The translations under genes and the position numbers were made by a program. From Bryobacterales bacterium (GTDB lineage: Bacteria > Acidobacteriota > Terriglobia > Bryobacterales > UBA6623): a stretch of DNA of 64,000 nucleotides. Shown one piece after another: positions 5,495-59,573 of this stretch. How positions within the stretch are numbered: the first letter of the stretch is position 1; each line of letters begins with the position of its first letter. Under the pieces are notes generated by a model. That model worked only from the letters and a program-made list of their open reading frames with translations. It was not told where the DNA came from and made no database searches. Where the stretch lies: assembly GCA_028819255.1 (NCBI GenBank), contig JAPPMB010000099.1, positions 1 to 64,000 on the forward strand. Direction: 5' to 3'.

Positions 5495-5512
5495 GCTCTC
5501 CGCCCTACCCGT

Positions 5513-6613: not shown

Positions 6614-6638
6614 TCGAGAGAGCCCGGGCACTTTCGAC

Positions 6639-8657
6639 CTACCGGCGGCGCGTCGGCTGGGCCGAATTCCTGTCCCACGCGATCCTGCAGTCGGGGAGTG
6701 CGGACCGCAGGGCATCGTATCCGCTGCTGGTCACGAGGGTGTGATAGAGGTTCAGAGAGAGCATCTCCCCGAACCGGCGGAGCGTTGCGACCGCTTCGTC
6801 GTCGATGGCCGTGTTGTCGAGGCTCAGGTCTCGCAGTCCGCTGCTCGAAGCAAGCGCGGCGATGCCGGCCGCCGAGATCTTCGTGTAGTCCAGGTTGAGC
6901 CGCCTGAGGCGATCCAGGCCTGCGAGCTCCGACAGGCCGGCGTCCGTCACGCGAGTGTTCGCCAGATCCAGGCTCGTGAGCCGCCGGAAGCCGCCGACTG
7001 CCTTCATGCCGGCGTCGGTGACGTCCGTGAATGCCAGCGACATCCGCCGAAGGTCCGGCAATGCCGCCAGCGCCTCAAGGCCCTCGTCGCCGAACCGCGT
7101 GCCTGTGAGACCCAGCTCCGACAGGCCTGCGACCTGGGCCAGCGCCTGGCCGGACTCATTCCCGATGGGCGTGTAGTCCAGATCAAGAATCTCCAGCTTT
7201 GCCAGGCCGGCGATTAGCCCAAGAGAGGAGTCGTCCGCACCGAGCCCCTTGAGAGAAAGGGATCTCAGATTCCGCAGGTTGCCGAGGTGAACCAGACCGC
7301 TTCCCTCCACCAGTGTCTCGTCGAGGGTCAGCTTGCGCAGCGAAGTCAGCTTGCCCACCGCGGCGAGACCGGCGTCAGTGACGCGTGTGCCGGAGAGATC
7401 GAGGGTCTCCAGCCGGGGGAGCGATTCGAGGGCTCCCAGCCCGAGGTCACTGATTTCCGTCGCGGAAAGGTCCAGTGCGGCGATCGACGGGAAGCGGCGC
7501 AACGCCTCAAGATCCCCGTCGCCCACCGGCATTGCGCGCAGGTCAAGCCACAGCGTCCCGTCCTGGCCCGTCGTCAGCTTGCCGCCGCCGGCCCGTGCCC
7601 ACTCGGCCAGGTCGTGAATTCCCGCCGTCGGAGGCGGTTGCAGTGAGTGCCGCGCGACCGTCGGCGCGGTTTCGACGAATGCGACATCGATCCCGGGCCG
7701 CAGCCGCATGAGCTGCTCCACTCCAGACGAGGTCACCCGGCTGTAGCGCAAGTCGACCGTAAGCAGCGAAGGCAGTTCCGCCAGGCGCGGCATCCCGGCG
7801 TTGGTCACTGACGTTCTGTAGAGATTGAGGTCCTCCAGGTCGCGCATCGGCGCCAGATGAGCCAGCCCGGAATCCGTGACGGCCGCGCCGCGCAGGTTGA
7901 GGACGCGCAGGCGATCGAGCGCGGCGAGGTGGGACACGCCTGCGTCGCCGAGTTCGAGGTCGGCCAGGTCCAGCTCAGTCAGCTCAGTCAGCCGCGTGAG
8001 TGCCGCCAATCCCTCATTGGTGACCTGCGTGCTGCGCAGGCGCAGGGTCCTCAGGGCGGAAAGCTCGGCGATTCGGAGGAGGCCCTCGTCGTTGACGTCG
8101 GTCTGTGTCACGTCCAGCCGCTCGAGTCGCGGGAACGCATCCAGATGCCTGCCCGTGATCCGTGTGGACTTCAGCTGTAGCGCCCTGAGGCCCTTGAGCG
8201 AGGTGATCTTCTCGATCCCGTGGTCGAAGATGCGGATGCCCTTGAAGACACTCATGAAGTGGTGGCTCAGGTGCAGCGACTCGAGGGACTCGATGCCGGC
8301 TAGGCTCTCGAGGCGGTCGCTGTCGTCAACGTTGCCCAGCTTCCCGCAGCACACGGGGTTCCACATCGTCCCGGGCAGCGTGAGGCTCCGAAGGCTGCGA
8401 AGAGAGCCGAGCCGCTTCAGGTCGCGAGGGTGAACCAGCGTGCCGGTGAGAACGACCTCCCGGATTTCGAACGGCGCTCCCGGAAGGTCATCCGCCGACC
8501 GGAATGCTCCGTCCACGCCGTGAAGAGAAACCCGGCCCCCGTTCGTCAGCACCCATACGGCCGCAGCCCGCTCCTCGGCATGCTGGCTTGCGGACGCCGC
8601 GGAAGCGAGCACCGTCTGGAGCAGAGCGACGACGAGGAGGATGCTGCGGGAACGCAT
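6639..8657 (-). CDS. Secreted leucine-rich-repeat protein (long copy, two modules)
   Basis: A 672-residue exported protein with an N-terminal signal peptide (MRSRSILLVVALLQTVL, ending near ASAASA) and more than twenty leucine-rich repeats. It contains two copies of one unit: each begins with a tryptophan-GG head (WVLTNGGRVSLHG near residue 36; WARAGGGKLTTGQDGT near residue 355) followed by a run of LRRs. The same head opens the adjacent shorter LRR protein. Two cysteines (NPVCCGKLG) lie in an insertion near residue 105. ATG 8657 is preferred to GTG 8666 because it starts the signal sequence; a TACAAT hexamer lies 43 nt upstream (8701-8706). Role unknown, probably surface or periplasmic binding. 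Confidence 0.8.
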   Translation of the reverse strand: MRSRSILLVVALLQTVLASAASASQHAEERAAAVWVLTNGGRVSLHGVDGAFRSADDLPGAPFEIREVVLTGTLVHPRDLKRLGSLRSLRSLTLPGTMWNPVCCGKLGNVDDSDRLESLAGIESLESLHLSHHFMSVFKGIRIFDHGIEKITSLKGLRALQLKSTRITGRHLDAFPRLERLDVTQTDVNDEGLLRIAELSALRTLRLRSTQVTNEGLAALTRLTELTELDLADLELGDAGVSHLAALDRLRVLNLRGAAVTDSGLAHLAPMRDLEDLNLYRTSVTNAGMPRLAELPSLLTVDLRYSRVTSSGVEQLMRLRPGIDVAFVETAPTVARHSLQPPPTAGIHDLAEWARAGGGKLTTGQDGTLWLDLRAMPVGDGDLEALRRFPSIAALDLSATEISDLGLGALESLPRLETLDLSGTRVTDAGLAAVGKLTSLRKLTLDETLVEGSGLVHLGNLRNLRSLSLKGLGADDSSLGLIAGLAKLEILDLDYTPIGNESGQALAQVAGLSELGLTGTRFGDEGLEALAALPDLRRMSLAFTDVTDAGMKAVGGFRRLTSLDLANTRVTDAGLSELAGLDRLRRLNLDYTKISAAGIAALASSSGLRDLSLDNTAIDDEAVATLRRFGEMLSLNLYHTLVTSSGYDALRSALPDCRIAWDRNSAQPTRRR

Positions 8658-8752
8658 CGCCAGCACTGGTCAGCCCATGCCGCGACCGACCTACAGGGCC
8701 ATTGTAATGGCCGCGGAATCGGGCGCGCCTCGCAAATCCGTCCCGTCTCGCG

Positions 8753-10363
8753 TCAGATCAGGTCGTGGCCGTCTCCGCAGACGTGGACTTCGATGCCAAG
8801 CCGCCGAAATGCCGCAATCTTTGCACACAGCGCGAGCCGCGCACCCGGCAGATCCGGAGCGTACGCCACCTGAATGTGATTCGACTTGTGCCGGCCCATC
8901 ATCCGGTCCCGGCTGATTCCGCGAGTCACGGCGTGCATGATCGGCCACTGGGGAGTGGTGATCCTCCAGCGCCGCTCCGTTTCTTCCTGCGGCAGCTCCA
9001 CGACCTCGGCAAGACCAACGTCGGCCTTCAACTTCCCGTCTTCGACGAAGATCCGGCTCCAGACGACCTCGCCCGGCTTGCTGATTCCCTTGATCGTGCC
9101 TCCCCCCAGCGGAAAGTACATCGGGGGCTGCCGCTCGCTGACGGATCCCGCGTATCCGCCTATGAGGTGCCTGGGAGGCACCGATCCGGAGATCTCGAAG
9201 ACCCAGACGAACTCGCTGCGCCCGCGGATCTCGAACGGCTCGCCGTACCGCAGGTCATGGAGGGTCGTCTCGGGATCGAAACCGAGGCTCGTCCAGACCC
9301 GGTTCGTAACCAGAGCGTCCAGGCCCGCGCACTCGTCGACCTCGTTGAAGTGCGGCATGGCCCTGCCCTCGAACAGCACCCTGCCGTCAGCGCTCCTTGC
9401 CGGCGGCCGGTCGACGTTGTTGAGCAGGCCCTCCACGAGGTCGGAGGCCGGGCAGATGTCCTTCAGGCCCTGCTGGTACTGGATCCCGATCGCATCGCAG
9501 CCGAACTCGTCCGCGATGCGCAGAGCGGCAATGTACATGCGGCATTGCCAGAGAATCTGGGCGTCGGTCAGGTCGGTGGCCTCGTCGGGGCCGATCAGGA
9601 ATCGCATGCCCTTCGCATCCAGCCAGTTCCGCACCTCTTGCGCCTCCTCGTCCGCAACCTGCCGCATGGCGGCCCACAGGGCCGACTGGCTGAGCCGCTC
9701 CTTGAACACGCCCGTGGCATTCAGCAGATGGTCCGGGATGATGGCGTTGTACATGCCCATGCATCCCTCGTCGAAGACGCCTAGGATGGCCTTCCTGGTG
9801 AGCAGATCGTCCGCGGCCCCGTGGCCGGCCAACATGGCCTTGTGGGGCAGGATAAGGTCGGACGCCGGATGCACATGGGGCTGCTGGTGCCGCACCGGAT
9901 GCCCGCCGGTCCAGCGCCGGAGGTTCGACATGAAGAACTCGTCCGTGAAGTCCTCGCTCCACAGCGTCGAGTACCGGACACCCGCCTTGGCAAGGCTCCC
10001 GTTGAGGTTCAGCATACCCACCAGACCGGGCCACTGGCCGCTCCAGTTGGCGACGGTCAGAATGGGCCCCGTGTGGCTCATCAGGCCGGGCAGGATGTGT
10101 TGGGAGTACTGCCAGACCGCCTCGGCGACGATCAGCGGTGCCTTGGGGTTGACGGACCGGAACACCTCGAGCCCGCGCTTCTGGCTGTCAATGAATCCGT
10201 GCTGCTTGGCGGCGTCGAACTCGTGGGCGCGCCGGACCAAACCGCCCGCATTCTCGACCGCGGCGGTCAGCTGCGCCTCCATGTTGCGCTGGGCTGGCCA
10301 GCACATCCGGTTCGCCGAGAGCCTAAGGTCGCCGTTCGCGACCAACAGAATTTCCTTGGCCAT
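8753..10363 (-). CDS. L-fucose/L-arabinose isomerase-like protein
   Basis: A 536-residue cytoplasmic protein resembling the L-fucose/arabinose isomerase superfamily: it starts with a Rossmann-like strand (MAKEILLVANGDLRLSANR), carries long isomerase-type segments such as VAEAVWQYSQHILPGL and GVFDEGCMGMYNAIIPD, and ends with KSNHIQVAY and a short C-terminal helix. Family members interconvert aldoses and ketoses with a divalent metal. I cannot assign catalytic residues with certainty, so substrate and activity are open. ATG 10363 is chosen because the conserved sequence begins exactly there; the frame is open upstream but runs into poorly coding sequence. It is divergent from the K+ channel gene. 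Confidence 0.65.
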   Translation of the reverse strand: MAKEILLVANGDLRLSANRMCWPAQRNMEAQLTAAVENAGGLVRRAHEFDAAKQHGFIDSQKRGLEVFRSVNPKAPLIVAEAVWQYSQHILPGLMSHTGPILTVANWSGQWPGLVGMLNLNGSLAKAGVRYSTLWSEDFTDEFFMSNLRRWTGGHPVRHQQPHVHPASDLILPHKAMLAGHGAADDLLTRKAILGVFDEGCMGMYNAIIPDHLLNATGVFKERLSQSALWAAMRQVADEEAQEVRNWLDAKGMRFLIGPDEATDLTDAQILWQCRMYIAALRIADEFGCDAIGIQYQQGLKDICPASDLVEGLLNNVDRPPARSADGRVLFEGRAMPHFNEVDECAGLDALVTNRVWTSLGFDPETTLHDLRYGEPFEIRGRSEFVWVFEISGSVPPRHLIGGYAGSVSERQPPMYFPLGGGTIKGISKPGEVVWSRIFVEDGKLKADVGLAEVVELPQEETERRWRITTPQWPIMHAVTRGISRDRMMGRHKSNHIQVAYAPDLPGARLALCAKIAAFRRLGIEVHVCGDGHDLI

Positions 10364-10472
10364 AATACTAGTAAGGATTCTCGCAAATCGTCCGCCGTGC
10401 TGCCGCCTCACGCGGCGATGCCCGCTGTCGAGTCCACGGTCCGCGACGACCGGGTCTGCCCCGTTCCTCACC

Positions 10473-10478
10473 TAGACT
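10473..10478 (+). promoter_or_regulatory. Putative -10 element before K+ channel gene
   Basis: TAGACT ends 7 nt before ATG 10486 and no Shine-Dalgarno sequence lies between. The spacing fits transcription starting at or next to the start codon. No convincing -35 element. Confidence 0.4.
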
Positions 10479-10485
10479 GCCGCTC

Positions 10486-11325
10486 ATGGATCCACTCAGG
10501 GACAGGCCGCCCCGAGGCGGCCGCCGGGCCAAGCTGCACGCCATCATCTTCGGCGTTCGTTCGCCCGCGGCAAAGGGCTTCGACGTCGGTTTGCTGGTGG
10601 TGATCGTGCTCAGCGTCCTGACCGTCCTGCTGGAGAGCGTGCCTGCGATCAACGCCACCTACGGCACGCCGCTGCGCGTTGCGGAGTGGTTCTTCACGGT
10701 CGTGTTCACGGTCGAGTATGCGCTGCGCCTGTGGACGGTGGCCCATCCCCGTTCGTATGCCCTGAGCTTCTTCGGAATCGTCGATCTGCTGGCGATTGTG
10801 CCCACCTACCTGAGTGCCCTCGTCAGCGGAACACAGTCGCTGGCCGCGGTCCGCGGGATCCGCCTGCTGCGCGTGTTTCGAGTGCTCAAGCTTGTGCGGC
10901 ACATGACCGAGGCCAAGGTGCTGACCGCCGCGATCGTCGCAAGCCGACCCAAGATCGTCGTCTTCCTGACGGGAGTGTTGAGCGTCGCGGTCATCTTCGG
11001 CACGGTGATGTATCTCATCGAGGGAGACGAAGCGGGCTTCACGAGCATCCCGACAAGCATCTATTGGGCCGTAGTGACCATGACGACGGTGGGCTATGGG
11101 GACATCGCTCCCCGCACGCCGCTGGGCCAGTTCCTGGCGCTCGCGCTGATGATCCTAGGCTACGCCATCATCGCGGTTCCGACTGGCATCGTGTCCGCCG
11201 AGCTTTCTCGGGCCCAACCGCAGGCCAGGCCGCGGGCCCGCTCCCGGCGCTCATGCGATGAGTGCGGCCGGTCAGGGCTCGCCCCCGACGCGGCGTACTG
11301 CGATGCCTGCGGGGCCGAGCTGTAG
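10486..11325 (+). CDS. Voltage-gated potassium channel with C-terminal zinc ribbon
   Basis: A 279-residue six-helix ion channel. The S4 voltage sensor is visible as regularly spaced arginines (RGIRLLRVFRVLKLVRH, about residues 122-138) and the selectivity filter as TTVGYGD (about residue 200), followed by the pore-lining helix. The N terminus is short and basic. The last 27 residues form a zinc-ribbon-like CxxC-x11-CxxC unit (CDEC ... CDAC), which is unusual for a Kv-type channel and may sense redox state or zinc. A TAGACT hexamer sits 7 nt before the ATG, so the transcript is probably leaderless. It is convergent with the ABC operon at 11351. Confidence 0.88.
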   Translation: MDPLRDRPPRGGRRAKLHAIIFGVRSPAAKGFDVGLLVVIVLSVLTVLLESVPAINATYGTPLRVAEWFFTVVFTVEYALRLWTVAHPRSYALSFFGIVDLLAIVPTYLSALVSGTQSLAAVRGIRLLRVFRVLKLVRHMTEAKVLTAAIVASRPKIVVFLTGVLSVAVIFGTVMYLIEGDEAGFTSIPTSIYWAVVTMTTVGYGDIAPRTPLGQFLALALMILGYAIIAVPTGIVSAELSRAQPQARPRARSRRSCDECGRSGLAPDAAYCDACGAEL

Positions 11326-11350
11326 GCGGGTCTCGCGGCTTGCCGGACGC

Positions 11351-12577
11351 TCAGCTCCTGGTCAGGTCCGAGCGGGCGGGCCGCAGCTTGCCGAAGTCGG
11401 CGCCTGAAATGACGTAGTACCACTCGGCGAATCGGGCCCGAAGCTCTTCCGAGAGTTCCCTGCCCTTCTCGGCGTCGCCCTCGTACGCCTCGGCCCTGGA
11501 CTCGCTGAAGTCCACCGTGACCATGAGGTAGCGGCGCTCGCCCTCGCCCTCGTCCGGCTGGCCGGCCTCCTGTCCCGAGCCTCCCGGCGCGATCTCGCCG
11601 AAACGCAGCACGTAGCGGAGTCCGTCCTTCGAGTCCACGATCATCTCGCCCTCGTTGGACAGGATCTGGCCGGTGTACGGGTTCGGGAAGAACCCCTTGC
11701 CCTGCAGGGAGCGGAAGTTCTCCCTGGTCGGCTGAATGCCCTGCCGCGCCTTCAGGTCCGCGCTCAGGCCGTCGGGCTTGGGCTGGACGTCTACGATGCG
11801 GAGCTTGTCCAGAGCCGTTGTCAGGTCGCTCATCGTGTCGGAGTTCGGCTCGGTCCCCGCAAGCTGCCACTTGTTGTCCTTCTTGGTCAGCGTGGTCTTC
11901 CGCCGGTTCTCGATGCGGCCAAGGCGCTCGTTGATGGTGTAGCTGTTGATCTCGATATGCCGAAGGTCGAACGGAGAGACCTTCAGGAGATCCGTCTCGA
12001 TCCAGTCTTGGAACCGGGCGGAAACGTCGGCCTCGGTCTTGACCTCGTAGGTCCGCTTCTGGCCCGGCACGCGCATATAGCGGTATCCGAACTTGCCGTC
12101 CACCTGCTTGCCGACGATGAAGTCCGCGAGCACATTCGAGTCGCCGTCGAGGATCTTGACCCGCTTTCCCCGGCCGGCAAGCGACGTTGCCTGGCCGTCC
12201 AGCGGATCGACGACCAAGTACTCCGCGTGGTCCTGGACGAGATCGGAAACCACGCGGTCCTTTCGCAACTCGATCAGCGCCGCCGCGGTGGTGGCCAGGC
12301 GCTCCTCGGCGTCCGCCGGGTAGCCGTGATGCGACGGGATCAGCCACTTGTTGTCGCGGAATTCCACCTTGAGCGGTGTTGCCGTCGCGGTGGATTCGTC
12401 GTAGTCGATCACCTCGATGGACCTCGGCGCCTGCGGGTCGCTGAATCCCTCGAAGAACACTTCGCCGACGTCGTCGAAGATGTCGGGCGTCGTCTTGCTG
12501 GGGTCGACCGCAACGGCCAGCCCGGCGGCAACGACAGCCGCGAGAACGAAATACAGGGTTCGAGTTGTCTCGCTCAT
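11351..12577 (-). CDS. DUF4340 domain protein of Gld-like ABC operon
   Basis: A 408-residue protein with one N-terminal membrane helix (LYFVLAAVVAAGLAVAV) and a large extracytoplasmic part made of DUF4340-type repeats (for example NKWLIPSHHGYPADAEERL and NKWQLAG...DKLRIVDVQPK). DUF4340 proteins are found after GldG-like auxiliary ABC proteins and probably form part of that export or envelope complex. The start overlaps the stop of the permease gene by 4 bp, so it is the last gene of a translationally coupled three-gene operon. The molecular role is unknown. Confidence 0.85.
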   Translation of the reverse strand: MSETTRTLYFVLAAVVAAGLAVAVDPSKTTPDIFDDVGEVFFEGFSDPQAPRSIEVIDYDESTATATPLKVEFRDNKWLIPSHHGYPADAEERLATTAAALIELRKDRVVSDLVQDHAEYLVVDPLDGQATSLAGRGKRVKILDGDSNVLADFIVGKQVDGKFGYRYMRVPGQKRTYEVKTEADVSARFQDWIETDLLKVSPFDLRHIEINSYTINERLGRIENRRKTTLTKKDNKWQLAGTEPNSDTMSDLTTALDKLRIVDVQPKPDGLSADLKARQGIQPTRENFRSLQGKGFFPNPYTGQILSNEGEMIVDSKDGLRYVLRFGEIAPGGSGQEAGQPDEGEGERRYLMVTVDFSESRAEAYEGDAEKGRELSEELRARFAEWYYVISGADFGKLRPARSDLTRS

Positions 12578-15216
12578 TGGTCAGAGGTCTCCACCAGCCT
12601 GTGCCGCGCCGCGCCCACGTCCTCCCGCTGGCGCCGCTTTACGGAAACCATCAGGAACAGCAGGAACGCCGGGACGGGGGACAGGGCCACGGCCACCAGC
12701 TTGATCGTGTTCTGGATTGCCCGGACCGCGGCTTCCATGTCTCCGCGGGCCCCCTCGATCAGGCGCTCCTTCTCGTCCTCGATGTTGCTGCGCGCCACCG
12801 ACAGCCTGCGGTTCTCGATGCGCTCCTGGTTCGAGATCATGATGCGCTTGGTCTGCGAGTCCAGATCGGTGCGGCTCTGCAGGGCCTGCACGGCGGCATC
12901 CAGGCGGGCCTGTGCCACCTCGAGCTTTTCCTCGGCCTCCTGCTCCGCGCGGCGCGTCTCCTCCAGCCGGTCCTCCTCGTACTTGCGGGTTCGCGCCTCC
13001 ACGGTCTCGAGGGTGCGGTGACGCCGCCGCCGCTTGCGGAGCTCGATGAACGAGTCGTCTCCCGCAAGCCGGTCCACCGCGTTCAGCAGGAACGTCACGT
13101 TGTCGAAGTTGAGGTCCTCCACGCCCTGCCGGCGCAGCTGGAAGAACTGCTCGCCCAGCATGTCGGCGTCCGCGATCACGATCGCGTGGACCGGGTTTTC
13201 TCCGTCTTCGGAGGAGACCCGGGCCGCCACAACGTGGCTGTCCTCGTCCGGCTCGTGGGGCAGGTTCGTCGCCAGTTGCATGCCGAAGACGGACTGCTGG
13301 ACCAGCCGGAACCACATGGTCGTCCCCGAGTCGGTTCCCGTGCGCAGCAGCGGGGTGAACTCGGTTCCGGCCTCGCTGTCCTCGGCCGCCTCCAAGACGC
13401 CGCCGTAGAGGATCACGACCTCCTGCAAGCCGGAGGACACCGGCTCGTCCTGGTTGAACGTTCCCTCGTAGCCGCTTCCCTCTCCCAGGAAGACCACCTC
13501 CTCGGGAAGGTTGTTGAAGGTCGGATGGGGGTTGTACTTGTCCCAGGCGATGCGGTCCGTCCGCCATTCGACCCCGAGGGCGTCCATCAGCGGCTTCGTG
13601 TCCGTCGGGACGCGCTGCGGCTGTCCCTGCTGGAAGGGGCTGGGAGGCATCTGCTGAGGAGAGGACTGGATGTCGAAGGCCGGCAGCGGATCCACGACCA
13701 GAAGGGAGGGATTGCCCTCCTTGACCCAGTCCGTCAGCCGCTCCAGGCCGTCCGTCTGAAGAGTGTTCGGAAGCACGGCGACCAGCACGTCCAGGTCGTC
13801 CGGATAGGTGCCGACTGCGGGCACCTGGACGACCTCGTACTGTTTCTCGAGCTCGGAGACGATCGACCACGACCGCGACTGCTGGCGGCTCTGGAAGTCG
13901 AAGCCTCCGAACATGTTGACTCCCGTGCCGAGGACGCCCACCTTCTTGCGCTCTGCGTCCGCCACAACCCGCACGGAGCGCGTGATCTCGTATTCCACCG
14001 GCAGGCCCACGTCGAAGAACGGGATCACGAACTCCTCGGCCGCACGGCTGAAGACCAGGCCGAGGAAGATCTCGTCCGGACTGCCCTGGGTCCGGTACAT
14101 GGGCGGAACCGGTCTGGGCCGGATGCTGAACCGGTCGCGCGCCTCCCGGGACTCGGGAGTGAACTTCTCGGTCTCGATGATGTTGGCGTGAATGCGGGCG
14201 CCGCCTCGCGAGTCGAACTCGCGCAGCATCGAGACGATGTTGTTGCGGGTCTGAACGAATCTTCTCGGGACATTCGGGCTGAGATAGGCTTGGATGAAGA
14301 CCGGCCGGTCCGGGTCAATGCCGCCGATCAGCTCGACGGTGTCCGGGGAGAGCGAGTGCAGCCGTTCGGCCGTGGTGTCGATTCGCCCTCCGAGCCGGCC
14401 GACGACCACGGTGACGCCGGCCACGGCCACAAGCAGCGCAATCCCCCGGACTGCATAGTGCCGTCCCAATGGGGGAGCATCCTTGCCTGTCGCCCAGTGC
14501 CGGCGCCCGAGCACGGCGACGTTCACGTAGATCATCACGGCAGTGAAGCCGAGAAAGTAGAGGACTCCTGAAATCGGAACGACACCGTCGGAAAAGTCGC
14601 GGAACTGCTCCACGAAGGAGAGGCTCTCGAGCACGCGCCGGAGCGGTCCGCCGACAATGTTGCCGGCGTGCTCGATGAATACCGGCACCGCGCAAAGCAG
14701 CGCCCCGAGGATGTAGGCGACCGTCAGGTTGGTCGTGAACTGGGACGCCAGCATCCCCACTGCGACCAGCGCGGCGCCCATCAGCCAGTACCCCGCGTAC
14801 GTGGCAAGCAGCAGCCCGAGATCCGGGCTGCCCAGGATCAGCAGGACGACCACATGGCTGATCGAGAATGCGAGCGCCACCGAGTAGATGGCCAGGTAGG
14901 CCGCGTACTTGCCGATCACAATCTGCAGATCGGTCGCGGGGAGGGTCAACAGGAGCTCGTCAGTGCCGTGCAGGCGCTCCTCGGCCCAGGCGGTCATCGC
15001 CAAGGCCGGCACCAGGAAGATCAGGAGATAGGGAAAGTAAAGGTTCAGCGCGTCGAGGTTGGCGAGGTTGCTCGCAAAGAAGGACTCCTGCCAGAACGCG
15101 GCCACGGCGCTCAGGAACACGAACAGCGAGATGAAGACATAGCCGGTCGGGCTGCTGAAGTACGAAGTCAGCTCCCGCCGGATCACGGACATCGAAACGT
15201 GCCACCTCTGGGTCAC
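12574..15216 (-). CDS. Fused ABC-2 permease and GldG-like protein
   Basis: An 880-residue fusion. The first 240 residues form six membrane helices of an ABC-2 permease (SYFSSPTGYVFISLFVFL; AWAEERLHGTDELLLTLP is the conserved cytoplasmic loop), equivalent to GldF. After a seventh helix (GIALLVAVAGVTVVVG) comes a GldG-like extracytoplasmic region (DTTAERLHSLSPDTVELI; DVLVAVLPNTLQTDG), then a charged coiled coil (about residues 740-830) and a final membrane helix (LVAVALSPVPAFLLFLMV). Elsewhere GldF and GldG are often separate. The partner ATPase lies upstream and the DUF4340 protein downstream, both with 4-bp overlaps. In Bacteroidota this set supports gliding; outside that phylum its job is unclear. 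Confidence 0.87.
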   Translation of the reverse strand: MTQRWHVSMSVIRRELTSYFSSPTGYVFISLFVFLSAVAAFWQESFFASNLANLDALNLYFPYLLIFLVPALAMTAWAEERLHGTDELLLTLPATDLQIVIGKYAAYLAIYSVALAFSISHVVVLLILGSPDLGLLLATYAGYWLMGAALVAVGMLASQFTTNLTVAYILGALLCAVPVFIEHAGNIVGGPLRRVLESLSFVEQFRDFSDGVVPISGVLYFLGFTAVMIYVNVAVLGRRHWATGKDAPPLGRHYAVRGIALLVAVAGVTVVVGRLGGRIDTTAERLHSLSPDTVELIGGIDPDRPVFIQAYLSPNVPRRFVQTRNNIVSMLREFDSRGGARIHANIIETEKFTPESREARDRFSIRPRPVPPMYRTQGSPDEIFLGLVFSRAAEEFVIPFFDVGLPVEYEITRSVRVVADAERKKVGVLGTGVNMFGGFDFQSRQQSRSWSIVSELEKQYEVVQVPAVGTYPDDLDVLVAVLPNTLQTDGLERLTDWVKEGNPSLLVVDPLPAFDIQSSPQQMPPSPFQQGQPQRVPTDTKPLMDALGVEWRTDRIAWDKYNPHPTFNNLPEEVVFLGEGSGYEGTFNQDEPVSSGLQEVVILYGGVLEAAEDSEAGTEFTPLLRTGTDSGTTMWFRLVQQSVFGMQLATNLPHEPDEDSHVVAARVSSEDGENPVHAIVIADADMLGEQFFQLRRQGVEDLNFDNVTFLLNAVDRLAGDDSFIELRKRRRRHRTLETVEARTRKYEEDRLEETRRAEQEAEEKLEVAQARLDAAVQALQSRTDLDSQTKRIMISNQERIENRRLSVARSNIEDEKERLIEGARGDMEAAVRAIQNTIKLVAVALSPVPAFLLFLMVSVKRRQREDVGAARHRLVETSDQ

Positions 15217-16022
15217 CGTGCACCTCCACTCGCCGGATCGCCGGCGTCGGGCGCATCCCCGCTGGGAGGCGGCGCCTCCCTTGGCGTACCGCCGTCCCCC
15301 AGCGTCAGCCGCTGGAACGCTGCGTCAAGGCCCTCACCAGCCGCCATCTCGGACGGCGTCCCGTCAAAGACGATCCGCCCCTCGCTGACGATGATGACGT
15401 GGTCGGCGACGGCCTCGACCTCCTGCAGGATGTGCGTCGAGATCAGCACCGTCTTCGACGGGCCCAGCCGCCGGATCAGACCCCGCACCTCGCGGATCTG
15501 GTTGGGATCCAGGCCCGCTGTCGGCTCGTCCATGATCAGGATGTCGGGCTCATGCAGCAAGACCTGCGCCATGCCGACGCGCTGGCGGTAGCCCTTCGAC
15601 AGCTTGTGGATGGCCTTCTCCAGAACGGCGTCGAGGTTGCACTGGTCCACGACGGTCTCGATTCTCTGCGCGAGCGTTCCGTTCGCCAGACCTCGTGCTT
15701 CGCCAAAGAAACGGAGCAGCTCGATGGGTGTCATCTGTGGGTAGAGTGGTCCGTTCTCCGGCAGATAGCCGATCTTCGCGGCCGCTTCGATGCGGTGCTC
15801 GGCAATGTCCAGACCGGCGATCCGCGCGACGCCCCTGGTCGCTTGCAGGTAGCCGGTCAGGATCTTGAGTGTCGTGGACTTGCCTGCCCCGTTCGGACCT
15901 AGGAAGGCGGCAACCTGCCCGGGAGGGACTTGAAACGACACGTCCCGGATGGCTGCGAAGTTGCCGTAGAATTTGCTGAGACGAACGGCCTCGATTGCGG
16001 CCGCTCCCACTGCGCGAGTCAT
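15213..16022 (-). CDS. ABC transporter ATP-binding protein (GldA-like)
   Basis: A 269-residue ABC ATPase with all motifs: Walker A GPNGAGKST, a signature-like LSKGYRQRVGMAQ, and Walker B ILIMDEPTAGLDP, followed by the H-loop STHILQEVEA. It would drive the permease encoded directly downstream. ATG 16022 begins the conserved domain (AIEAVRLSKFYGNF follows); the open frame continues upstream but lies in promoter sequence. It is the first gene of the operon, with a sigma70-like promoter (TTGAAA, 17 bp, TATATA) about 100 bp upstream. The C terminus ends in a short proline/glycine-rich tail. Confidence 0.9.
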   Translation of the reverse strand: MTRAVGAAAIEAVRLSKFYGNFAAIRDVSFQVPPGQVAAFLGPNGAGKSTTLKILTGYLQATRGVARIAGLDIAEHRIEAAAKIGYLPENGPLYPQMTPIELLRFFGEARGLANGTLAQRIETVVDQCNLDAVLEKAIHKLSKGYRQRVGMAQVLLHEPDILIMDEPTAGLDPNQIREVRGLIRRLGPSKTVLISTHILQEVEAVADHVIIVSEGRIVFDGTPSEMAAGEGLDAAFQRLTLGDGGTPREAPPPSGDAPDAGDPASGGAR

Positions 16023-24121: not shown

Positions 24122-25041
24122 TCACCTGCCACACGGAGCACAGGCCGTAGATCACCGAACCAATGGGGGTGACGGTGCCGGGCGACTACTGCTTCCACTG
24201 CCGCGAGGGCATCGCGGAAGAGCGCCCGACACACGTCGGTATGGCCTTCGACTCCTGCGCGTCCGCAGGCTGCCGCAACTTGCACGACAACCGGGCGCTC
24301 TACGATGACTTCCTCGTCGAGCATGGCCGGGTGGAGATCCAAACGATGACGGTTGCCGCGCCGCTTCGCTCGGCGTATGTCGAATGGGACGCGGCGGGAC
24401 GTCGGGCCCGTGGCGAAACCGACGTGCCGGCTGGGCTCTTCGCAAACCCGACACTGACCGCCGCGTGGGCGGCCTCGGCCCACGCGGCGAGCGGCGTTGG
24501 CTGCTCGACGGGGCGCCACGGCATGCGGCCTGCAGCTGGACTGGAGCGAATGTCCCCGTCTGAGGCGCGGTTGGCGATGCAGCCTGATGCCCGTTCCCTG
24601 ATCCTCGACTGCGGATCGTGCCACGATCCGCACTCGGTGGGCGTGCGCCGGGCAGCGGCGGATGCGTGCCTCGCCTGCCACGCCGACGGGCACAGCAAGG
24701 CCTATCAGAATTCTGCCCATTTTCGACTATGGCAGTCGGAAATGGTTGGTGTTGGCAAGCCAGGCAGCGGAGTAAGCTGCGCATCCTGCCACCTTCCGCG
24801 AGAGGCGCGCCGCGTCTCAGGCGACCAGCGGATCGTCGTTCAGCACAACCAGAACGCGAATCTTCGACCGAACGAAAAGATGATTCGCGAGGTCTGCATG
24901 CGATGCCATTCCCTGGCATTCGCGATCGACTCGCTTGCTGACCTGGATCTCGTGCGGCGCAATTTGGCGGGTCCACCGAAACGCCACGTCCCCAGCATCG
25001 AGATGGCGCACTCTCGAGCAGGCTTGCCGGCAGACCGGTGA
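24109..25041 (+). pseudogene. Octaheme-like c-type cytochrome, decayed
   Basis: The frame starts at a junction near 24110 and reads a heme motif CVTCH (24118-24132), then an in-frame TAG (24148-24150) before the rest of the protein. Downstream, four CxxCH motifs remain (CGSCH, CLACH, CASCH, CMRCH), while three further sites have lost their heme-ligating residues (CFHCR, CASAGCR, CSTGR). Eight sites in total point to an octaheme ancestor of the multiheme cytochrome c type. ATG 24163 would give a 292-residue protein without signal peptide, so it could not be exported or matured. It was probably the first gene of a cytochrome, DUF3365 and porin cassette. Confidence 0.75.
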
Positions 25042-25065
25042 GCAAGGCAGGCAAGAGGAGACAAG

Positions 25066-25652
25066 ATGAACACGCTTACATTTCGCACTGCTTCGCGGCC
25101 ACGGCCGCAGCCGTTGTGGCATCCCTCACCGCCTGTGGCGGGGCACCGACGGATGTCAAGTTACACAAATCCCCGCACCTGATGGCGGATGCGCTGCACG
25201 CGGTCATGGAGTCGAACCGCACGGTCTACTCCCGCACCGTGGTCAACCGACTTCAAAACGAGGAGGGAGTCATCAAGGCGAGCGAACACTGGCAGGACGA
25301 CAAGGCCTTGCCCCTGCCCGCCCAAATGCTCCGCATGGGCGCCGAGATTGCGGCCGTCAAGACTGATGGCATTCAGCTACTCGCTGCTGTCGAAGTGGCC
25401 CATTCACAAGCAGAACGCACTCAAGACCGATGTCGAGATCGCTGGCCTTGACGCGGTGGCGGCAGATCCAGCGAAGCCCCACTATGCATCGGAGTCGCTC
25501 GGCGGCGCGACGTACTTCACCGCCGTCTATGCCGATGTTGCCGTGGCCCTCGCCTGCATCACATGCCACAACGACCACAAAGACAGGCCGCGTCAAGACT
25601 TCGAACTCGGCGAGACCATGGCGGGGTCATCATTCGGATCCCGATGGGGTAG
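25066..25652 (+). pseudogene. DUF3365 (Tll0287-like) heme lipoprotein, frameshifted
   Basis: A DUF3365 protein broken by frame changes. ATG 25066 has an AGGAG site 5 nt upstream, but the lipoprotein signal (VVASLTACGG) is in a second frame, implying an indel near 25085-25100. The middle of the domain (MLRMGAEIAAVKTDG) continues in a third frame as FSYSLLSKWPIHKQN after a shift near 25366-25372, with YFTAVYADVAVALACITCH carrying the heme motif CITCH. Near 25623-25627 one G appears lost and the natural ending GVIIRIPMG with stop (25650-25652) lies back in the earlier frame. It sits between the broken cytochrome and an intact porin. Confidence 0.75.
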
Positions 25653-25666
25653 AGAGGAGCACGATC

Positions 25667-27004
25667 ATGAAGACACTTTTCCTATTGGCAGTGGTCGCGA
25701 CGACTGCGCTCGATGCCGCCCCGCATGTTGGCGACCAGCAAGGCCCCTCCCGGCTGCTTGGCCGGCCCATCTCCAAGTTCGTCAGCGAGTCCACGCAGAA
25801 GTGGCTTTCGCTGAGCGGCGACTTCCGATTCCGGTTCGAGGACCGTCGGGGGCTCGGATTCAAGTCCGGGAGCGACGACGCCTGCGGGCTGGCCCGGCCC
25901 CGAATCGACGTCAGGATCTCTCCGAGCAAGTGGCTCAACTTCGGCTTTCAGGGCCAAGACTCAAGAGCTCCGGGAATCCGCAAGGGTGCCCACAACAACG
26001 GGGTCTTCCGCGACACGTTCGACGTACGCCAGGCCTACATGCAAATCGGCGGAAGCGAGGATTCTCCCGTCTGGGCGACTGTCGGTCGACAGTTGCTGAT
26101 CTACGGGGACCAGCGGCTGATCGGCGCGCTCGACTGGACGAACACATCACGGACGTTTGACGCGGCGAAGCTCTCGGTCAAGGCAGGCCCGGCCGAATTC
26201 GACGTGTTCTCGGCGTCCGTTGTGCAGAACGCTCCGGCCCGACGCATCAACCAGTCAGCCGAGGGCAACAACCTCCATGGTGCCTACGGTTCGCTGCGGA
26301 AGTTGCCGCCCAAATCGACTATCGAGCCGTACATGCTCTGGCCGACGACGCCGTCGCTTCTGGATGAGCTTGGACTGCGCGGGGATCTGGACCGGTACAC
26401 GGGTGGTGTGAGAATCTTCGCGAAGGGCATCGGGCCATTCGACTACAACGCTGCTGTGGTCCGCCAGTGGGGCAGTGTCGGAGCCGCCAGCATCAGCGGG
26501 TGGGGAGCATACGCTGAACTCGGCTACACCCTGCGCATGCCTTGGACGCCGCGCCTCTACGCGGAATACACGTTCGGATCGGGGGACGCCGACTCCACCG
26601 ACGGCGTTGCGGGCGGATTCGCGGACCTGCTCCCCACAGCTCACCTCTGGCACGGCTACAACGACATGGTCGGGTGGAGGAACCTGAGGAACGTCCGCGC
26701 CGGCTCCCAGCTCAAGCCGATCCGCAAGTTGTCGGTCCGGCTCGACTACCACTCGTCTTGGCTGGCGGACAAGGCTGACGGACTCTACAACGTGGCTGAA
26801 AGACGAACCCTCACCGTGCCGGCTGCCGGTGCGACTGACGCCAAGATCGGCGACGAGGTGGACGCGACACTGACCGTTCCGCTCACGCCGACCATCACCG
26901 TGGGTGGAGGCCTCGGATACATGTTTCCCGGCCCATTCCTCAAGGCGCACTCGCCGGGATCCGGCAACAGCTTCACCTTCCTGTTCGTCGGCTACAAGTT
27001 CTGA
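25667..27004 (+). CDS. Alginate-export-family outer-membrane porin
   Basis: A 445-residue protein with a signal peptide (MKTLFLLAVVATTALDA) and a beta-barrel of the alginate_exp type: SGDFRFRFEDRRGL, WATVGRQLLIYGDQRLIG and WLLxFGF-like strand patterns alternate hydrophobic and polar residues, and the chain ends in phenylalanine (FVGYKF), the usual outer-membrane signature. A GAGAGGAG site lies 7 nt before the ATG. Unlike its two upstream neighbours it is intact. The barrel could have served as the outer-membrane partner of the decayed cytochrome; alone it may act as a solute channel. Confidence 0.8.
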   Translation: MKTLFLLAVVATTALDAAPHVGDQQGPSRLLGRPISKFVSESTQKWLSLSGDFRFRFEDRRGLGFKSGSDDACGLARPRIDVRISPSKWLNFGFQGQDSRAPGIRKGAHNNGVFRDTFDVRQAYMQIGGSEDSPVWATVGRQLLIYGDQRLIGALDWTNTSRTFDAAKLSVKAGPAEFDVFSASVVQNAPARRINQSAEGNNLHGAYGSLRKLPPKSTIEPYMLWPTTPSLLDELGLRGDLDRYTGGVRIFAKGIGPFDYNAAVVRQWGSVGAASISGWGAYAELGYTLRMPWTPRLYAEYTFGSGDADSTDGVAGGFADLLPTAHLWHGYNDMVGWRNLRNVRAGSQLKPIRKLSVRLDYHSSWLADKADGLYNVAERRTLTVPAAGATDAKIGDEVDATLTVPLTPTITVGGGLGYMFPGPFLKAHSPGSGNSFTFLFVGYKF

Positions 27005-48514: not shown

Positions 48515-50518
48515 TCAGAAGCCGACGGTCAGGCTCGTATGGCCTATATGCGACCGAAAGCCGCGAATTCCGGCGATGGTCTCGGCGTATCCGTAGTACT
48601 GCCAGCCGACATTCCATGCCAGATTCGGTCCCACTGCGATCGACAGGCGCACTTGGGGCGAGTGGTACGACATCGGCAGGCTGGTCGCCAGGATTCCGCC
48701 GCTGAGGGAGTACGCCGCCCGCTCGGCGAATGCCAGGTCGAATTCGCCGCCCCCGGTGTCCTTGGTGAGGTTGTATCCGAGGTGCAAAGTCAGGCGCTCC
48801 AACGGAGCCGCGCGCATTGCGAAACTCAGGTTGTGGATGTTCCCGGCGTAAACGCTGCGCAGCCGCTCGAGATCCCCTTCGAAGCTGAAGAGATCGACAA
48901 TCCCCGTCGACACATCGATGTCCAGCTGGCTGTAGCCTGCATCAAAGACTGTGCCGGAATCCGCGTGCACCCATGAGGCGTGGACTCCGTGGCCTCTGCT
49001 CCTCGAGCTGTAGGCCAGCAACTCGGTGGGGTTGTCGTTCACCCGGTTCTTGAAGTACCCGCTCAGCGTCAGGTTGTCGCGGCGCCAGCGCATCCGTGCG
49101 GACTGGTTGTGGAAGCGCCTATCGCTGGTGGGGGTCAGTGGCCGGTCAGCCCGGCCGATCTCGAGGTCGAATGAGGCCCGCAGGTTGCGCCCCGGGAGCC
49201 AGCGCACGCCGGCGGCCCCGGAACTGAACCGGTTGTCCACGGCCTCCAGATCCCTGCCGAAGCCGAAGTTCTCGTACTCGACGGCATCGGACGATCTCGC
49301 CCGCCGGCTTGAGAGCTTGTACGCCCCATACAGGCTGACCGCCTTGACCGCCCGGAAGTTGGCCTCCGTCGCGTTGGAGATGCGGCGGATTCCCAGGTGG
49401 CTGAAGGTGAGGAACTCGTCCCGGAAGAATCCGATCTCCACGAAGGACGCATGTCCGTCGATACGGGTGTTGTGGAACGCCGTCGTGTTGGTGATCGTCC
49501 AGCGGGGGGACGGCAGGAACAGGACGGTGGATTCCCCGGAACTCTGCCGCCGGTTGGCATCGCCCACGATGAAGGCCTCGCGAAAGCCGGCTGGCATCGC
49601 TGCCGAGTCGGGCACGGTGATCCGGTCCATGAGGGCCGAGTTCCGGGTCCCGCCGGCGTAGACAAAGCGGGAATTGAACCCGATGGCGCGCTCCTTCCTT
49701 GTCCGCAGAGCCACGGTCGTGATGGCCGTACGTCCGTGGAACGGCTGGGCACGCTCGAACTCGTCGACCGGCTGGATGTTCGATGTGGCCGACGGCAGCC
49801 TGGACGCGTCCTCCTGGACGCCCTCCTCCTCGTAGAAGTCGACGGCGCGCATCAGTGTCAGCGCCATCCCGCCGAACTTCGCCGTGAAGCCGGCCCGGTC
49901 CTGCCTGTTGGACTGCCGGAGGTTGACCAGGTACCGGAGATAGTTCAGCCCGTCCAGCACACCGAAGTTGTCGGTGGTCCCAACGGACGCGAAGCCGGGG
50001 CCCGACCTCTCGTTGCGGTCGTGGCCAAGCAGGATCTCGAAGGACGATCCCGGAAGCAGCGTGAGGTCGTGGACCTGCATCGCCCGCTCGACGGTCAGGC
50101 CGTGCTCCCCGCTCCACAGCGACGGCAGCCTGTTGTGGTACCTCACAAGGCGGTGCTGCAGGTCATACCGGTAGTAGCCGTTCTTTTCCGCTCGGATCAC
50201 ATGCGCCTGGTAGGGGTCGCCGGGCCCCCCGGAAGAGCGCAGCGAGAAGTCGTCCAGAGCCGCTCCCTTCCCGTCAGAGGAATTGATCCGGAGCCTGCCC
50301 CGGAACAGGCGCAGGCCGTTGCCGTAGTTCACGCTGGCGCGAAAGATGTCGTGGTCTCCGCCGACGCTTGCGAAGCGGTACCCGAACTCGAACGAGTTCG
50401 AGAGCGTGTAGCCGCCCACGTCGCGAGAGGACTCCGCCGACTCGACCGAAAGCGTGACCGGCTGCTGGGCCGCCGCGGCCGGACACAGGAGCAATGCTGC
50501 CAGAAGGTGGCGGGTCAT
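48515..50518 (-). CDS. MtrB/PioB-like outer-membrane beta-barrel protein
   Basis: A 667-residue protein with a signal peptide (MTRHLLAALLLCPAAAA) and a large barrel of alternating strands, for example NSFEFGYRFASVGGDHDIF, GYYRYDLQHRLVRYHNRL, MRWRRDNLTLSGYFKNRV and the end HTSLTVGF with terminal phenylalanine. Size and context fit the MtrB/PioB family, the porin sheath that holds a decaheme cytochrome in the outer membrane. The start overlaps the stop of the decaheme cytochrome gene by ATGA. The N-terminal CxxC of Shewanella MtrB is not seen. Family assignment rests mainly on context and barrel features. Confidence 0.72.
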   Translation of the reverse strand: MTRHLLAALLLCPAAAAQQPVTLSVESAESSRDVGGYTLSNSFEFGYRFASVGGDHDIFRASVNYGNGLRLFRGRLRINSSDGKGAALDDFSLRSSGGPGDPYQAHVIRAEKNGYYRYDLQHRLVRYHNRLPSLWSGEHGLTVERAMQVHDLTLLPGSSFEILLGHDRNERSGPGFASVGTTDNFGVLDGLNYLRYLVNLRQSNRQDRAGFTAKFGGMALTLMRAVDFYEEEGVQEDASRLPSATSNIQPVDEFERAQPFHGRTAITTVALRTRKERAIGFNSRFVYAGGTRNSALMDRITVPDSAAMPAGFREAFIVGDANRRQSSGESTVLFLPSPRWTITNTTAFHNTRIDGHASFVEIGFFRDEFLTFSHLGIRRISNATEANFRAVKAVSLYGAYKLSSRRARSSDAVEYENFGFGRDLEAVDNRFSSGAAGVRWLPGRNLRASFDLEIGRADRPLTPTSDRRFHNQSARMRWRRDNLTLSGYFKNRVNDNPTELLAYSSRSRGHGVHASWVHADSGTVFDAGYSQLDIDVSTGIVDLFSFEGDLERLRSVYAGNIHNLSFAMRAAPLERLTLHLGYNLTKDTGGGEFDLAFAERAAYSLSGGILATSLPMSYHSPQVRLSIAVGPNLAWNVGWQYYGYAETIAGIRGFRSHIGHTSLTVGF

Positions 50519-51567
50519 CGTCGGAACTTCGAGTCGGCGTTGGATCCGTGGATCCGCGAGTGGCAGAGGACGCAGTCCCGGAATGCCGGGTCGGCGAGGT
50601 TGTGAAACCACGGACTCGGCGGGAGGATGCCCTCGGCCCGCAGGCCGAACCCGCCGATGTCGTTGTGGCATTCGAGGCACAGGGTGAATGCGGACGGGCG
50701 GTTGAGCAGTCTGGCGTTCGTGCTCCCGTGGGGGTTGTGGCACGCGGGGCAGCCCTCGACGCGGACTGGCGGATGCTCGTGAACGAACGGTCCCCGCTTG
50801 TCCGAGTGGCACTTCGTGCATGCGATGTCGTTCCCGAGGCCGTGTGAGACCATCCTCGGCGAGTGTGCGGTCCTCCAGGTCGCCAGCGGGGCGCCGTGGG
50901 GGTTGTGGCAATCGGTGCATTCCATGGCGCCCTCGTTGACGCGGTGCTTGAACGGCATGTTGAACCGCGCCTCGATTTCCCTGTGGCACCCGTAGCAGAC
51001 GCTGCGCTGCTCGGCCGCAAGCAGAGGGCCCGGCTCGTGGGCGCCGTGGATAGAGTGGCAGCTAGTGCAGCCCACCTCGCCAGTCAGGTGTGCCGACCGC
51101 CGGACGTGCATCTTGCCGATGTCCCCGCTGTGGCAGCGGAGGCAGACGTCCTGGGCCTGGCTCGGCTCGATCTCGGGGAACTTGACGATCTTCCCGTTGT
51201 CCGGATCAATGACGTGGTAGCCGGCCGGGCCGTGGCATCCCTCGCAGCCGGTCCGTGCGGCGGGCCGGCCTCCCTTCGCCACGGACCTGAAGTGCGGGTT
51301 GCCGGGGAAGCCCTTCCACACAGTCGGGTGGCAGCCCTGGCAGATCTGGCTGCCCAGGAACTGTTGTCCGGGCGGCCAGTGCTCCTCGTCGAACGTGCGC
51401 AGGACCCTGCGGTCGGGCGGCCACTCAACCTGTGCTGCAGAGACAAGGGGGGCGAGCAGGACGATGGATGCGAGAGCCGCCGCCAGTCCTGTCGTTCTGG
51501 CCGGGAAGCGTCGCCTGCTACCGGCCTGCGGCCGCGGCTCGTCATCGATCGGCGACATCGAGATCAT
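50515..51567 (-). CDS. Decaheme c-type cytochrome (MtrA/DmsE-like)
   Basis: A 350-residue periplasmic cytochrome with exactly ten CxxCH motifs (CQGCH, CEGCH, CLRCH, CTSCH, CYGCH, CTDCH, CTKCH, CPACH, CLECH, CVLCH), spread evenly through the chain, and the MtrA/DmsE-type contexts GSQICQGCHPTVWKGF, CTDCHNPHG and CPACHNPHG. A signal-like hydrophobic run (LAAALASIVLLAPLVSA) precedes residue 60. ATG 51567 or ATG 51558 may start translation. Such cytochromes form an electron wire inside an MtrB-type barrel; the barrel gene follows with a 4-bp overlap. No outer-surface MtrC-like cytochrome is encoded in the window. Confidence 0.88.
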   Translation of the reverse strand: MISMSPIDDEPRPQAGSRRRFPARTTGLAAALASIVLLAPLVSAAQVEWPPDRRVLRTFDEEHWPPGQQFLGSQICQGCHPTVWKGFPGNPHFRSVAKGGRPAARTGCEGCHGPAGYHVIDPDNGKIVKFPEIEPSQAQDVCLRCHSGDIGKMHVRRSAHLTGEVGCTSCHSIHGAHEPGPLLAAEQRSVCYGCHREIEARFNMPFKHRVNEGAMECTDCHNPHGAPLATWRTAHSPRMVSHGLGNDIACTKCHSDKRGPFVHEHPPVRVEGCPACHNPHGSTNARLLNRPSAFTLCLECHNDIGGFGLRAEGILPPSPWFHNLADPAFRDCVLCHSRIHGSNADSKFRR

Positions 51568-58270: not shown

Positions 58271-58403
58271 ACAAGATTCGGGAAGCGAGCGATAAGTCAT
58301 TTGCTTGCAATGTGATACAGAGAAGTCCGACCTGCATCGATTTCAACGCGCTTCGAGCGCTGCCCGGAGCCTTGGGCAGTCGATTTGTTTCTCTGAGGAG
58401 GTC

Positions 58404-59573
58404 ATGCATGAGGGCCGACTCGTCTTCACTCAACTGATGGACTTCCTGCCACGAAGGCGCTTCCACACTTGCGTCCGGCGCTACCGCGGCAATCGCCGGG
58501 TCCAATCGTTCACCTGCCTCGACCAGTTCTTCTGTATGGCATTCGCTCAACTCACCTCCCGCCGGAGCTTGCGCGATGTCGAACTCTGCCTGCGTGCCCA
58601 CCGCTCCAAGCTGTACCACATGGGCATCCGCGGCGGCGTCGCGCGGAATACTCTCGCGAACGCCAACAAGGTCCGGGACTGGCGGATCTACGCCGACCTC
58701 GCTCAAGTTCTGATCGGCATCGCCCGCCCGCTGTATGCCGACCAAGACCTCGGTCTGGACTTGGACAACACCGTCTATGCCTTGGATGCCTCGACCATCG
58801 ATCTCTGCCTCTCCGTCTTCCCCTGGGCCAGCTTCCGCTCAACCAAGTCCGGGGTCAAACTGCATACGCTGCTGGACTTGCGGGGGAACATACCGACCTT
58901 CCTCCACATCTCCAATGCCCGGCTGCACGACGTGAACGCCTTGGACTTGCTGGCTCCCGAACCGGGAGCGTTCTACGTTATGGATCGCGGCTACGTTGAC
59001 TTTCGTCGCCTGTTCGCTCTGGAAGTCGAGAAATCCTTCTTCGTTATTCGTGCGAAGTCCAATACGCGCTTGCAACGACGCTATTCCCGGCCAGTGGACA
59101 AGACCACGGGCCTGCTCTGCGACCAAACCATCCAACTGACCGGTCGAGGGACGTCTGTCAAATATCCGCATCCTCTGCGGCGCGTCAAGTTCCGCGATGC
59201 CGAGACGGACAGAACGTTCAACTTTCTCACCAACAACTTCAAGGTTCCCGCCATCGCGGTCGCCGACCTGTACCGCTCGCGCTGGCAGGTCGAGCTGTTC
59301 TTCCGCTGGATCAAGCAACATCTCCGGATCAAGGTCTTCCTCGGCACCACGGAGAACGCAGTGAAGACTCAGATCTGGATCGCCGTCAGTGTCTACGTCC
59401 TCGTGGCCATTGCCAAGAAGCGGCTGCAGGTGACCCACACCCTGTATGCGATGCTGCAGGTGCTGAGCCTGACGCTCTTCGAACGGGAGGCTCTGCGCGA
59501 CGTGCTGCTGGGCCCCACGCCGGAGCACGACGGAGCTGGCGGCCCCGAGCAGCTGCTCCTGTTCGGAACCTAA
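58404..59573 (+). CDS. IS4-family transposase with DUF4372
   Basis: A 389-residue DDE transposase. The N terminus is a DUF4372 domain (LVFTQLMDFLPRRRF; FTCLDQFFCMAFAQL). The catalytic acids are D in YALDASTIDLCL, D in YVMDRGYVDF and E in the YREK-like block YRSRWQVELFFRWIKQHL. ATG 58404 is chosen since the conserved domain begins there, with GAGGAGG just upstream; a TTG at 58305 would add 33 unmatched residues. The frame is intact, so the element is probably able to move. Confidence 0.92.
   Translation: MHEGRLVFTQLMDFLPRRRFHTCVRRYRGNRRVQSFTCLDQFFCMAFAQLTSRRSLRDVELCLRAHRSKLYHMGIRGGVARNTLANANKVRDWRIYADLAQVLIGIARPLYADQDLGLDLDNTVYALDASTIDLCLSVFPWASFRSTKSGVKLHTLLDLRGNIPTFLHISNARLHDVNALDLLAPEPGAFYVMDRGYVDFRRLFALEVEKSFFVIRAKSNTRLQRRYSRPVDKTTGLLCDQTIQLTGRGTSVKYPHPLRRVKFRDAETDRTFNFLTNNFKVPAIAVADLYRSRWQVELFFRWIKQHLRIKVFLGTTENAVKTQIWIAVSVYVLVAIAKKRLQVTHTLYAMLQVLSLTLFEREALRDVLLGPTPEHDGAGGPEQLLLFGT

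Follow-up and report, generated by a model that had tools for sequence, protein, structure and literature searches.

Two overlapping genes of a Bryobacterales bacterium, one for a multihaem cytochrome and one for a putative outer-membrane barrel, raise the question of whether their products carry electrons across the outer membrane and, if so, in which direction and between which partners. Acidobacteriota are among the commonest soil bacteria, and assessments of how far they can perform extracellular electron transfer have relied mainly on MtrB-type models and on searches for MtrCAB. The pair lies in a stretch of 64,000 nucleotides (positions 1 to 64,000 of contig JAPPMB010000099.1, assembly GCA_028819255.1), here called the window. 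On structural and genomic grounds, the two proteins very probably form an outer-membrane electron conduit that is MtrAB-like in fold and layout and has a divergent barrel.

Gene pair with an ATGA junction

A preliminary description of this DNA had reported a ten-haem cytochrome with a series of CxxCH motifs, coupled through ATGA to a 667-residue protein ending in phenylalanine, and both features are seen directly in the translations (Table 1). The cytochrome frame is free of stops, and the C-terminal end of the second protein reads ...SLTVGF. The stop codon of the first gene and the start codon of the second fall in one tetranucleotide, and the identical junction is present in 14 of 14 family-level relatives, so the overlap is not due to chance. 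Both products carry apparent export signals: an N-terminal Sec-type signal at about residues 20 to 45 of the cytochrome (read by eye) and a sequence at about residues 1 to 18 of the barrel that reads as Sec type.

Table 1. Features of the putative conduit locus (window coordinates)
Feature	Position	Strand	Basis
Decahaem c-type cytochrome, MtrA/DmsE type, 350 aa	50515..51567	-	TIGR03508 score; ten CxxCH motifs; ten further conserved histidines
Predicted outer-membrane beta-barrel, MtrB-like, 667 aa, C-terminal F	48515..50518	-	AlphaFold2 model; Foldseek; VIA-align; hhalign
ATGA stop/start overlap, predicted translational coupling of cytochrome and barrel	50515..50518	-	Seen directly; kept in relatives

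The decahaem cytochrome

The ten CxxCH motifs follow one another at 32, 34, 25, 24, 26, 33, 23, 24, and 35 residues (start to start), a spacing that is the same in nearly all of the 14 family-level relatives. In a profile search of the kind proposed earlier, the cytochrome scored 235.8 bits against TIGR03508 (DmsE; cut-off, 192.2 bits), with residues 72 to 345 aligned to positions 1 to 257 of the 258-position profile. It is the only protein of the genome above that cut-off. Against NF041028, the model for Geobacter GSU2203, it scored 204.2 bits (cut-off, 325). Among proteins of solved structure, the one closest to it in sequence is chain A of 6r2q, an entry for the Mtr complex in which this chain is listed as "cystathionine beta-synthase," plainly a mislabeling.

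An alignment of 106 cytochromes contains 86 rows of the window type, and across these the ten motif histidines and ten others are kept in at least 97%. The further histidines (H92, 118, 160, 174, 208, 224, 265, 280, 322, and 340; 97 to 100% kept) are presumed to be the distal haem ligands, and a set of ten motif and ten additional conserved histidines fits ten bis-histidine haems. In a tree of 86 cytochromes, the partners of TIGR03509-type barrels and the partners of window-type barrels separate fully (support, 100/100).

The barrel: missed by family models, nearest to MtrB in predicted fold

The MtrB/PioB model TIGR03509 found no match in the window barrel, in the whole genome, or in any of 30 relatives, and a place in the curated MtrB/PioB family, as implied by the preliminary description, is therefore not upheld by sequence. 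No Pfam family, TonB and Alginate_exp families included, matched the barrel up to an E value of 1, and a direct search against the sequences of solved structures returned nothing useful. The model for Geobacter GSU2204 (NF041027) gave 15.2 bits against the window barrel (cut-off, 350) and was matched weakly by 11 of the 30 relatives (best E value, 8e-7); by sequence, the barrel is classed in a divergent family of acidobacterial proteins, to which no other curated model comes nearer. When the family was aligned by hhalign with 20 TIGR03509-positive acidobacterial barrels, the match reached 94.9% (E value, 4.8e-8; 486 columns), and reversed and column-shuffled controls reached at most 0.2%. A profile comparison with a two-sequence MtrB alignment, too shallow for this use, gave no signal.

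An AlphaFold2 model built from 30 aligned relatives (mean pLDDT, 78.9; pTM, 0.74) contains 27 strands of at least seven residues, a count that would fit 26 barrel strands and one further strand in a loop. The top Foldseek match of this model was 6r2q_B, the MtrB of the Mtr complex (E value, 9.6e-13; TM score, 0.65 to 0.67), followed by TonB receptors with TM scores below 0.5. Structural alignment by VIA-align placed model residues 32 to 667 end to end on residues 47 to 695 of the same chain (Z score, 22.7; rmsd, 3.9 Å; 555 of 649 residues), with 12% identity; the runner-up had a Z score of 15.8, and TonB receptors and porins lay at or below this value. A separate, shallower model (11 sequences; pLDDT, 65) gave the same order, with MtrB first. 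Thus, the MtrB-like fold of the model and the profile homology together mark the barrel as a remote MtrB homologue that lies beyond the curated MtrB/PioB family. That the protein is a barrel at all had been read from the sequence earlier and is now backed by the structure model. A TonB or alginate-export identity, named in the preliminary description as the outcome that would speak against a conduit, was rejected: neither family scored, and MtrB ranked far ahead by fold.

Constancy of the pairing and distribution of the barrel family

A multihaem cytochrome adjoins the window-type barrel in all 81 distinct loci examined across the phylum, and these cytochromes have at least ten motifs, except for one gene cut by a contig end. 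The 81 loci include 16 weak or distant matches picked to test the profile for unrelated barrels; in one of them, the cytochrome lies downstream of the barrel. The same cytochrome/barrel layout was found at 20 of 20 TIGR03509-type loci. Barrel and cytochrome distances are correlated (r = 0.96), which may come from shared descent alone.

By counts that are estimates, with weak matches inspected in part and every inspected one having a multihaem partner, the profile of the window barrel family matched 188 genomes of the 299 sampled from Terriglobia at an E value of 1e-3 (166 of 240 good genomes; 84 of 106 genera) and, at 1e-10, 91 of 396 genomes across the whole phylum. TIGR03509 found 27 of the same 299 Terriglobia genomes, eight of them above its cut-off. 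In one relative (G001; L013:1498-3447, plus strand, and L031), an in-frame TAG interrupts the barrel gene shortly ahead of the last strand, and the frame runs on past it; a sequence error, decay, or readthrough may lie behind this.

Possible electron transfer partners in the source genome and in relatives

The preliminary description had noted that the window holds no MtrC-like surface cytochrome. This is true and extends to the whole genome, which is 98% complete: the best match to the MtrC/OmcA model TIGR03507 scored 17 bits (cut-off, 209), and none of 11 genus members has an MtrC above the cut-off. The NapC/CymA family (PF03264) had no match in the genome, and a NapC-family protein above the cut-off occurs in two other genus members. 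With no MtrC-family protein, no NapC/CymA-family protein, and no second DmsE-family protein found, the conduit is an orphan in this genome. A haem-copper oxidase is present in the genome, and a cytochrome c assembly protein (PF01578) is encoded inside the window. Elsewhere in the genome (L127:7630-8865, plus strand; contig C78), a membrane-anchored eight-haem cytochrome is followed by a membrane protein. The eight-haem cytochrome, which we take to resemble the hydroxylamine oxidoreductase family, is a possible periplasmic partner.

Inspection of 18 relatives showed no conserved third gene adjoining the pair, and near the window the two genes stand alone. Other lineages have richer loci. In one (L133; G427 C107, positions 3635 to 12758, minus strand), an MtrC/OmcA-family protein (513 bits) comes first, next the window-type pair, and last a second decahaem/barrel pair with a barrel that is TIGR03509-like by its N-terminal sequence, so that two conduit families lie side by side. 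In two others (L131 and L136; phylum family f34), the window-type pair lies amid clusters of seven-, eight-, and nine-haem cytochromes that include a seven-haem NapC/NrfH-like membrane protein and a c7-b561 fusion as in CbcL; the barrels of this family have charged C-terminal residues (e.g., AADR) in place of phenylalanine. In a member of the window's own family (L134; G006 C12, positions 9811 to 13305 and 13395 to 15551, minus strand), an MtrC-family gene (480 bits) stands ahead of a 27-haem frame of 1,164 residues that comprises, in this order, a NapC/NrfH-like membrane domain, c7 repeats, and a DmsE decahaem domain and that overlaps, through ATGA, the gene of a paralogous barrel. Inside this frame, a signal-like segment has no start codon nearby, which suggests a true fusion of a quinol dehydrogenase, a periplasmic wire, and a conduit cytochrome. 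These MtrC, NapC/NrfH-like, and CbcL-like neighbors support a conduit role for the barrel family.

Proposed function and alternatives

We hold with considerable confidence that the two genes encode an electron conduit through the outer membrane, as the preliminary description proposed in likening them to MtrAB and PioAB; the DmsE-family cytochrome with its ten further conserved histidines, the MtrB-nearest fold, the profile homology to TIGR03509-type barrels, the constant pairing, and the partners found beside relatives all agree with this. The cytochrome would be exported, loaded with bis-histidine c-type haems, and held as an insulated wire within a barrel of about 26 strands, and electrons would cross between the periplasm and the cell surface. 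Because neither an MtrC-type surface cytochrome nor a NapC/CymA-type quinol dehydrogenase was found, the exposed end of the cytochrome would have to make direct contact with the external partner, whether a metal (chelated or mineral), humics, flavins, or a second cell; some periplasmic carrier would serve the inner end. MtrA-type haems might directly serve soluble or chelated acceptors or donors. Against the conduit stand the failure of TIGR03509 to match the window barrel or its 30 family members, the low identity to MtrB, and the fact that the rest of the electron path in this genome is missing or unrecognized.

A chance neighborhood of a periplasmic cytochrome and an ordinary transporter or porin of the TonB or Alginate_exp type would account for the silence of the Pfam models and TIGR03509 and for the TonB receptors in the Foldseek list. 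It is nevertheless very improbable, given the cytochrome pairing at every locus examined, an end-to-end alignment in which MtrB leads the TonB receptors by 7 Z units, and the lack of any TonB or Alginate_exp score. A conduit that feeds a dedicated extracellular reductase encoded elsewhere (e.g., a DMSO-type molybdoenzyme), as in DmsEF, appears improbable too, if less so: DmsE is the best curated family of the cytochrome and DmsE and DmsF share the same core, but no reductase gene recurs next to the pair, whether in the window or in relatives, and the DmsE model takes in MtrA-type proteins as well, so that its name is no indication of DMSO.

The direction of flow is the closer question. An inward conduit, supplying the haem-copper oxidase and the respiratory chain with electrons from Fe(II) or another external donor, would share with PioAB and MtoAB a two-gene layout that lacks MtrC, and it would suit a genome that has the oxidase and no NapC/CymA quinol dehydrogenase. 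We nonetheless regard it as rather unlikely, because no PioC- or MtoD-like gene lies beside the pair in any genus member and the partners of relatives are typical of reductive systems. The earlier comparison of the missing MtrC with iron-oxidizing PioAB thus holds for the two-gene layout; as a pointer to iron oxidation by itself it fails, since relatives keep reductive-type partners. We think that outward flow, with electrons disposed of at oxygen shortage, is somewhat likelier than inward flow and has slightly better than an even chance, the remainder being left to other uses; what favors it is that same-family relatives sit with MtrC, NapC/NrfH-like, and CbcL-like proteins.

Comparison with known conduits

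The putative conduit shares with Shewanella MtrCAB (6r2q) a decahaem cytochrome of the same family, the gene order A then B, and a full-length barrel fold, and it differs from that system in its distant barrel sequence and in a genome devoid of recognizable mtrC and CymA-type genes. Like the PioAB and MtoAB conduits of iron oxidizers, it has two components and no MtrC; unlike them, it has a barrel outside the MtrB/PioB model and no PioC, MtoD, or CymA gene beside the pair. Geobacter GSU2203 (OmcK) and GSU2204, whose genes are induced by hematite and magnetite (PMC4070692), are the nearest curated sequence families (NF041028 and NF041027, respectively), but the window pair falls below both cut-offs, and GSU2204 is described as CXXCH-containing whereas the window barrel has no haem motif.

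MtrCAB is already known in Bryobacterales: the Group 5 clusters described for Acidobacteriia/Bryobacterales (Baker et al. 2022, PMC8805035) include mtrC together with a gene for a tetrahaem cytochrome. The MtrAB principle is common to both, in the order of the window's named relatives, but neither additional gene accompanies the window pair, which is an MtrAB-like variant with a divergent barrel. Other reports for the phylum concern Solibacter and Terriglobus decahaem genes in tundra soil (PMC3669403), a Holophaga genome in which profile models found two porin-cytochrome complexes, one of them showing homology to MtrB (PMC7399161), and PioA/PioB homologues listed in Acidobacteria (PMC10654088). 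In the open-access literature, no description of the window barrel family as such was found, and a literature search on electron transfer in sponge-associated Acidobacteriota found nothing.

It seems to us an evenly balanced proposition that most Terriglobia and many other Acidobacteriota carry a long-separate conduit lineage with barrels that escape the standard MtrB model, kept in the genus of the source genome as a stand-alone two-protein wire without a known surface or inner-membrane partner. If such pairs conduct, the capacity for electron exchange with minerals or other cells would be far commoner in the phylum than one would gather from surveys by MtrB-type models and searches for MtrCAB. 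A further question, posed by the orphan form, is what role a conduit plays without MtrC and CymA.

Other features of the window

A second cytochrome/barrel pair lies at window positions 24163 to 27004 (plus strand). Its cytochrome is a 292-residue protein with four CxxCH motifs and several seemingly degraded ones (CFHCR, CASAGCRNLH, and CSTGRH); the barrel, of the Alginate_exp family (PF13372; 199 bits), comes after an intervening short frame. A transposase frame (DDE_Tnp_1 with DUF4372) is located at positions 58305 to 59573 (plus strand).
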